The notes beneath the pieces are model-generated. The model did not search any database. It was given only the letters and a program-made list of their open reading frames with translations, and had not been told where the DNA came from. A DNA stretch of 36,900 nucleotides from NCBI GenBank assembly GCA_017507105.1, contig JAFWBM010000008.1, positions 1-36,900 of the forward strand. The letters run 5' to 3'. Position 1 is the first letter of the stretch. The number at the start of each line of letters is the position of its first letter. The DNA comes from Bacteroidaceae bacterium (GTDB lineage: Bacteria; Bacteroidota; Bacteroidia; Bacteroidales; Bacteroidaceae). Below, one piece after another: positions 26,271 through 26,445 of this stretch. A program made the position numbers and the translations under genes.

Positions 26271-26445
26271 GCAAATATAGTAACAAACGAGCGAGATAGA
26301 CAAAGTTTACTTTGGCATTTCACAGCGAGTGCAGGCTATGTTCGCGATTTATCGCAAATATAGTAACAAACGAGCGAGATAGACAAAGTTTACTTTGGCT
26401 TTTCACAGCGAGTGAAGACTATGTTCGCGATTTATCGCAAATATA
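26271..26445. repeat. Two tandem 83-bp repeat units carrying -7 boxes, upstream of the beta-galactosidase gene
   Basis: Unit 1 is 26271-26353, unit 2 is 26354-26436, and a nine-base start of a third (GCAAATATA) ends at 26445. The two units differ by three substitutions. Each has three small dyads: CAAAG-TTTA-CTTTG (26301-26314 and 26384-26397), TTCAC-AGCGA-GTGAA (degraded in unit 1) and GCGAT-TT-ATCGC. The junctions read TATATTTGCG on the minus strand, a -7 box pointing at the beta-galactosidase. A diverged single copy is at 12507-12600. Confidence 0.9.
26272..26279 (-). promoter_or_regulatory. -7 box of the beta-galactosidase gene
   Basis: On the minus strand TATATTTG, an exact TAnnTTTG match, about 94 bases before the ATG at 26178. 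The same octamer recurs at 26355-26362 and 26438-26445, so up to three start sites 83 bases apart are possible. Confidence 0.55.

Follow-up and report, generated by a model that had tools for sequence, protein, structure and literature searches.

Results

Repeat units upstream of two genes in the window

The window (the whole stretch of DNA analysed, 36,900 nt) carries on its minus strand a beta-galactosidase gene (22159..26178; GH2 + F5/8 type C domain) and a gene for an lplA-like lipoate-protein ligase (11502..12485); Pfam domains agree with both gene names given in the original prediction. Each gene lies downstream of an array of short units. As predicted, two tandem 83-bp units (26271-26436, with a closing box reaching 26445; mutual identity 96%) are present upstream of the beta-galactosidase gene, and a diverged copy, with boxes spaced 85 bp apart, is present upstream of lplA (12508-12600).

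In the beta-galactosidase array, the -7 box closest to the gene start is the proximal box CAAATATA (26272..26279, minus strand; TATATTTG on the gene strand). The 75-bp body of unit 1 (26280..26354, plus strand) contains a ACAAACGAGCGAGA block, a central hairpin (CAAAG/CTTTG), a CAGCGAGTGCAG block, an arm TATGTTCG, and a terminal hairpin (GCGA/TCGC). An internal box CAAATATA (26355..26362, minus), the 75-bp body of unit 2 (26363..26437, plus), and a distal box CAAATATA (26438..26445, minus) complete the array, with A-rich DNA beyond. The lplA array has a proximal box CAAATATA (12508..12515, minus) 22 nt from the lplA ATG, a 77-bp body with the central hairpin TGAAAC/GTTTCA (12516..12592, plus), and a distal box CAAATATA (12593..12600, minus). 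Every junction had been said to read TATATTTGCG on the gene strand; this held for four of the five, and the one nearest the beta-galactosidase start reads TATATTTGCC.

Next to the beta-galactosidase array, the segment 26450..26506 (plus strand; GAGAG-AGAAAAAA ... CGCATCCTA) looks like a decayed copy of a second unit type. It matched a type-2 profile, built from six units of G020, G028, and G071 and from no window sequence, at E=3.7e-5 in the 3.7-kb locus and at E=3.8e-4 in the whole window. The DNA just left of the lplA unit (12490..12507, plus strand), which adjoins the lplA start codon, is probably the tail of another decayed unit, a remnant of its terminal palindrome; the BLAST match begins at 12490, and the profile match is weak (E=0.008). 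No Rfam family matched in a search of the window. A separate 29-nt inverted repeat (20912-20975; arms 93% complementary, 6 nt apart) between two convergent open frames is probably a terminator.

Copies in the genome, the genus, and the order

With the 175-bp array as query, BLAST found 33 matches in the window's own genome. A covariance model gave 55 matches at E<=0.01 and 52 at E<=0.001; one weak match is antisense to a real copy. The family holds about 50 copies in this genome, far beyond chance, and the body is present at some 30 places. The search for copies in relatives that had been proposed with the prediction found matches in all 37 genus genomes searched, the window's own included, and one weak match among 24 genomes of other genera.

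Under stricter filters, 2 of 118 other genomes of the order had covariance-model matches. A pattern of the conserved blocks, designed after copies seen in two other families and exact, so that it misses some units, matched 8 of 393 genomes (own included) in 4 of 207 genera, and the reversed control pattern matched none; one genome (G057) was matched by the covariance model and not by this pattern. Rarer relatives of the unit thus occur in three other families of the order, making four families in all. The other-family loci keep the layout of the unit while differing in part of the sequence (box, CAAACGAG block, hairpin, CGAGTGC block, hairpin, box), and at one of them five complete units and one partial unit follow each other. 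At one locus of another family of the order (L272 of G071, family f29), the second unit type lies beside the first, and both types are therefore old or were transferred together. Phage and plasmid collections gave no BLAST match to the unit; 13 viral contigs share a 16-mer with it, and the unit profile found there only two weak partial matches (E 0.027 and 0.086).

Covarying hairpins and an arm complementary to the boxes

In each unit, a box reading CAAAKATA (on the opposite strand TATMTTTG, the -7 box of Bacteroidota) stands at either end of a body that measures about 75 bp and carries two covarying hairpins. Over 112 profile matches, the plus-strand order is box CAAAKATA, ACAAACGAGCGAGA, central hairpin, CAGCGAGTGCAG, arm TATNTTCG, short terminal hairpin, and box. 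Both hairpins stand behind a GCGAG block, and the arm, the terminal hairpin, and the next box form one near-palindrome. Unit length ranges from 83 to 86 bp, and leader and tail are absent. As candidate terminal inverted repeats, the two ends of the consensus body gave a weak alignment (p 0.03 against shuffles), and the outermost bases mismatch. In several species, units of the family contain, nested at roughly the same point, a different hairpin-rich repeat (GCGACGACG ... AAAGGAGTGC; L202, L207, L184, L020, L133).

The covariance model was built from 48 units, namely 47 of 59 diverse units (the other 12 were excluded from the alignment, mostly for uneven length) and one from the window; nine of the 48 come from the window's own genome. 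The two stems covary, with a score of 0.358 against 0.151 in shuffled alignments, which 0 of 500 shuffles attained, and the score fell to 0.05-0.08 when the stems were slid. Stem pairs altered on both sides numbered 10, against 7.4 in shuffles (3/500). All 48 units have one unpaired step in the terminal stem, in most cases C against A. The change of the central hairpin on both sides had been taken as a sign of selection on pairing; the covariation stands, and selection is its likely cause, although template switching between palindrome arms could also yield it. As for the strand that folds, departures of the G.T and A.C kinds over twelve stem pairs (69 to 48) were not decisive.

The arm is complementary to both junction boxes, the left one of its own unit included. 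Covariation with the arm was found at the variable box base (141/172 against 93.5 expected), and in 104 of 182 distinct units the base that precedes the arm pairs with the one that follows the left box (71.6 expected; 0/2000 shuffles). This pairing of arm and left end stops inwards, as columns 10-65, 11-64, and 12-63 showed no covariation. In the last units of arrays, the base preceding the arm pairs with the left end of its own unit in 24 of 43 (p 0.006) and with the base that follows the right box in only 12 of 43 (p 0.80). Inner units exceeded the shuffles on both sides (left end 43 and right side 38 of 77; p 0.001 and 0.018), as expected where the following unit begins in the same way. All of these p values for arm pairing are optimistic, since units share descent.

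Position and orientation relative to genes

We collected 102 distinct arrays from the window's own genome, from relatives chosen by similarity to the window's units and hence biased towards them, and from named MAG records. They contain one unit (19 arrays), two (49), three (19), four (11), five (3), or six (1). The gene-side flank was readable in 95 arrays; these are not all independent, as a few are orthologous sites of two species and a few share a locus. An automated call placed 80 of these in promoter orientation, 11 against it, and 4 in neither class. Inspection of 15 doubtful arrays found 8 more facing a gene, 1 contrary (L172), and 6 ambiguous, so that the box faces the adjoining gene start in 88 of 95. 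The eight added arrays precede ssb (twice), fabD, a MATE-like gene (these names were given by eye from translations), three other open frames, and an RNase P RNA gene. The last (L036) was identified with Rfam in a search of four loci, its array box lying about 18 nt ahead of the RNA gene; Rfam found no match at 12 further loci with doubtful neighbours. The claim that the junctions are promoter -7 boxes was thus borne out as sequence and by orientation. Genes on the far side had no clear orientation bias (50 plus, 37 minus, 8 none).

The gene-side base beside the proximal box is G in 66 of 92 arrays, and the DNA beyond the distal box is A-rich (A in 56/70 at the fourth base and 55/70 at the sixth). 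With this G at one end and a T-rich gene strand at the other, the outer flanks resemble a native promoter split in two; the gene strand is likewise T-rich in unit-free lplA promoters of relatives. A search for a -33 element beyond the distal box gave no clear candidate; CAAA stands at 20 nt in 4 of 70 arrays, not above several positions near the box. On the gene strand of the window's two beta-galactosidase units, the box is preceded by TTTG at a distance of 21 nt. Unoccupied TATMTTTG boxes around the arrays number 29 in 114 kb of coding DNA and 16 in 21 kb between genes. None of the arrays collected lies clearly within a gene; automated gene starts overlap some of them.

A common function of the genes behind the arrays is not evident. 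Of ten proteins scanned, nine had Pfam matches, each to a different set of families: beta-galactosidase, LplA, glutamine synthetase, release factor, XerD-type recombinase, NAD kinase, pterin-binding enzyme, LysR, and NAGidase. Elsewhere in the window's own genome, a single-unit array (L048, C14:101500-105600) stands 28 nt before a plus-strand gene (2132-4099) whose start resembles Cas9 by eye; the 656 aa read had no Pfam match at 1e-10. Two other loci (L167 and L171), both at contig ends, have gene-side DNA 98% identical over 168 nt and different far sides, possibly a repeated operon or element.

Empty sites and possible transfer between families

For the beta-galactosidase and lplA sites, 42 and 40 relatives had a match, and 29 were examined for each. 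None of the 29 beta-galactosidase relatives has a unit of either type within 400 nt upstream, at least 326 nt being readable in each. Among the 29 lplA relatives, three of them readable for only 248-325 nt, a unit of type 1 is present at the promoter in two and one of type 2 in one, all in the same orientation, and one further relative has a type-2 unit farther up in the opposite orientation.

Two clean empty sites show a single box where a relative has box, body, and box. G004 has a single CAAATATA where G019 has CAAATATA-body-CAAATATA; the bases after the box differ, and this pair does not fix gain against loss. Upstream of aroK (named by eye), G417 has a single CAAAGATA where G275 has CAAAGATA-body-CAAAGATA, and a third genome (G178) lacks the unit and has a box of the TAAATTTG type. 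Since aroK is empty in both G417 and G178, gain in G275 is the simplest account. At both sites the target, CAAATATA or CAAAGATA, is single when empty and duplicated when filled.

The G275 contig with aroK belongs to its own family (83% identical to G417 and 77% to G178); against seven genomes of the window's genus, it gave matches in three, all short and weak. Four G275 units were compared with units of that genus and proved 83-96% identical to them, the aroK one 90%; the family placement covers the contig of the aroK unit. An own-family contig with genus-like units suggests that the element passes between families, the alternative being strong constraint on its sequence.

Within the genus, the nearest unit outside the own array came from the same genome for 78 of 197 units, whereas shuffles gave 17 and never exceeded 35; in the window's genome, the figure was 35 of 43 units. 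Some sites are common to species at 67-83% flank identity, and the pattern therefore partly reflects old inheritance or repeated use of the same promoter.

Turnover of unit number and mixed arrays

Unit number was unequal at 12 of the 13 orthologous sites compared. In G020 and G028, all eight sites differ (5/2, 5/3, 4/2, 1 truncated/2, 1/2, 3/2, 2/0, and 4/6, incomplete units included); three of these pairs came from a first comparison and five from a second, in which the other three of eight flanks had no partner, and the 2/0 site is not a clean empty site, because the partner carries other DNA there. Ten more flanks were tried, and four had a partner at 90% or more, namely three G019/G004 sites with 1/0, 2/1, and 1/3 units and one G032/G064 site with 2/1. 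A fourth G019/G004 site, outside this set, has two complete units in each genome plus a partial one in G004. Some of these counts may be too low, since MAG assembly can collapse repeats. At two G032 sites, the more distant relatives (four each, 72-81% identical) have no unit in the same orientation. Mobility of the unit family, which the original prediction had offered as a mobile or expanding element, is well supported by copy number, by positions rarely common to relatives, by the two empty sites, and by this turnover.

Two arrays (L196 and L197) combine units of the window's type with units of the second type, and every joint is CAAAGATA; the two types have one box in common at the joint. 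Median unit identity is 0.95 within an array and 0.78 between arrays of one genome. The first and last boxes are of the same type (CAAATATA or CAAAGATA) in 52 arrays and differ in 6, among the 58 arrays in which both end boxes have T or G (of the 95, 36 had no last box read and one has A). This agreement is expected if the site supplies the box. At one site in two species (L012 and L014), the box type is switched throughout, and arrays therefore also homogenise.

Discussion

Proposed origin of the arrays

The family, its orientation, the box-body-box arrangement against a single box, the turnover of unit number, and the covariation can be read directly in the genomes compared. They are, we think, probably the work of a non-autonomous mobile element whose insertion into the -7 box duplicates the box and is followed by tandem expansion. 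An enzyme would insert the non-coding body of about 75 bp into a TATMTTTG box in one orientation, and the 8-bp box would end up flanking the body on both sides. The gene-side copy of the box would keep the native start side, and the distant copy the native upstream half. Each insertion would make a new box, so that arrays could grow by fresh insertion, giving mixed arrays, as well as by recombination between units. The putative enzyme may recognise a folded single strand, in which two hairpins stand with an arm able to pair with either box, and the boxes inside arrays may act as promoters. Because the duplication leaves the gene a core box, both the one-way orientation and the tolerance of insertions would be explained.

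A transposase or recombinase partner was not found in a Y1 survey of 44 genus genomes or in 1.01 Mb of loci. The Y1 transposase is absent from the window's own genome and from 39 of the 44 genus genomes and present in 5 (these are MAGs, and some genes may be missed); with 39 genomes lacking it, we rejected a RAYT/IS200 enzyme as a general companion of the units. The scan of 1.01 Mb of loci for an autonomous copy yielded a single split unit, whose 202-nt gap is too small to hold a gene.

The units could instead be REP-like repeats moved by an IS200/IS605-type (Y1, HUH) enzyme that makes single-strand cuts beside hairpins, the carrier enzyme being now mostly lost or unassembled. Guide sequences of IS608 pair with its cut sites, and the arm complementary to both junction boxes is reminiscent of them; the two hairpins, each behind a GCGAG block, and the C.A-type step left unpaired in every modelled unit fit as well. 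We nevertheless regard this as quite improbable, as units occur in every genus genome searched and Y1 in few, and as the target is duplicated here, whereas, to our knowledge, IS200/605 insertion makes no target duplication. Another account is a promoter or operator cassette that selection maintains and that spreads without a transposase, through ordinary recombination and gene conversion; its units would provide a promoter, a transcript leader, or the binding site of a regulator. It would explain the prevailing orientation towards genes, the conserved blocks between the hairpins, the TTTG 21 nt before the box in the window's two units, and the resemblance among copies of one genome. The single box of the empty aroK sites against the box-body-box of the filled one is, however, what an insertion would leave, the target genes have no evident common function, and the hairpin stems vary freely, unlike a protein operator, all of which makes this account unlikely.

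Still less can be expected of plain minisatellites, that is, arrays that arose by tandem duplication of local promoter DNA and vary only in copy number. The likeness of units within an array and the fast shifts in unit number suit them, and such expansion would remain part of array growth; as a full account it is contradicted by the same body at some 30 places of one genome, the same layout in four families, filled sites with counterparts that lack any body sequence, and the mixed arrays, and we consider it very improbable.

Comparison with known systems

The units resemble MITEs in being short, non-coding, and present in many copies per genome, and mobile promoters in placing the same promoter-like segment before unrelated genes. 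A literature search, mostly outside subscription papers, found no description of this repeat. Integron cassette arrays share with this family a constant junction, hairpin-forming sites, and mixed unit types; the integron attC core is GTTRRRY, and by eye this core is absent at the unit junction, nor is there a gene in the units. Correia elements of Neisseria differ from the family in size, ends, and target. They are like it in being small repeats, mostly upstream of genes, that carry promoters; the available part of a MITE review does not mention arrays of them joined by a promoter box, nor does the word tandem occur in it (PMC10969869).

The closest precedents are MITEs such as BrickBuilt, REP/RAYT repeats, and promoter-targeting transposons, each of which, as far as the available portions of the sources go, differs in a defining feature or could not be shown to share it. 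BrickBuilt of Porphyromonas gingivalis has 23-nt repeats between a leader and a tail, IS5-like inverted repeats, and 19 copies; it contains bidirectional promoters, with promoter activity shown in E. coli, and its duplications vary in length and sequence, strains without the element carrying the flanking bases once (PMC4596501). Like the present family, it is an intergenic mobile element of Bacteroidota with tandem repeats whose number varies between strains and with a single copy of the flanking bases where the element is missing; unlike it, the present family has an 83-bp unit, no clear terminal inverted repeats, and a promoter box as junction (PMC4596501). The Mutator-like TnGBS, ISLre2, and ISKra4 elements are full transposons with inverted repeats that insert 15-17 bp upstream of the sigma-A -35 element (PMC3942029). 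TnGBS and ISLre2 are likewise aimed at promoters, and oriented for most of that group, but the site used here is the -7 box itself and the elements are short arrayed repeats (PMC3942029). REP/BIME repeats with RAYT have GTAG or CGTC tags and a length of 20-40 bp, the RAYT gene often lying near GTAG repeats (PMC3733652, PMC2817692). They too are short palindromic intergenic repeats, some arrayed, that form hairpins with a tag at one end, whereas the present units are joined by an 8-bp promoter box and most carriers lack a Y1 gene (PMC3733652). Inspection of the consensus by eye found neither a GTAG nor a CGTC tag at the unit ends.

Implications

A more far-reaching interpretation is a promoter-nested cassette system, in which an undescribed site-specific recombinase or transposase would use the -7 box as both target and junction, act on a folded single strand with an arm able to pair with either box, and set hairpin cassettes of several types head to tail before genes. 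We hold this to be possible though doubtful; were it true, hosts would gain rapidly changing stacks of transcription starts.

If insertion into the -7 box with duplication of the box is correct, a mobile element would land inside the core promoter and yet leave a core box at the gene, which would explain dozens of tolerated insertions before housekeeping genes. Even species with mostly 88-98% identity in the flanking DNA would then have different promoter architectures, and the element may cross family borders. The 75-bp body and the 8-bp target would provide a defined handle for tracing the enzyme and for studying whether expression is tuned by stacked boxes.
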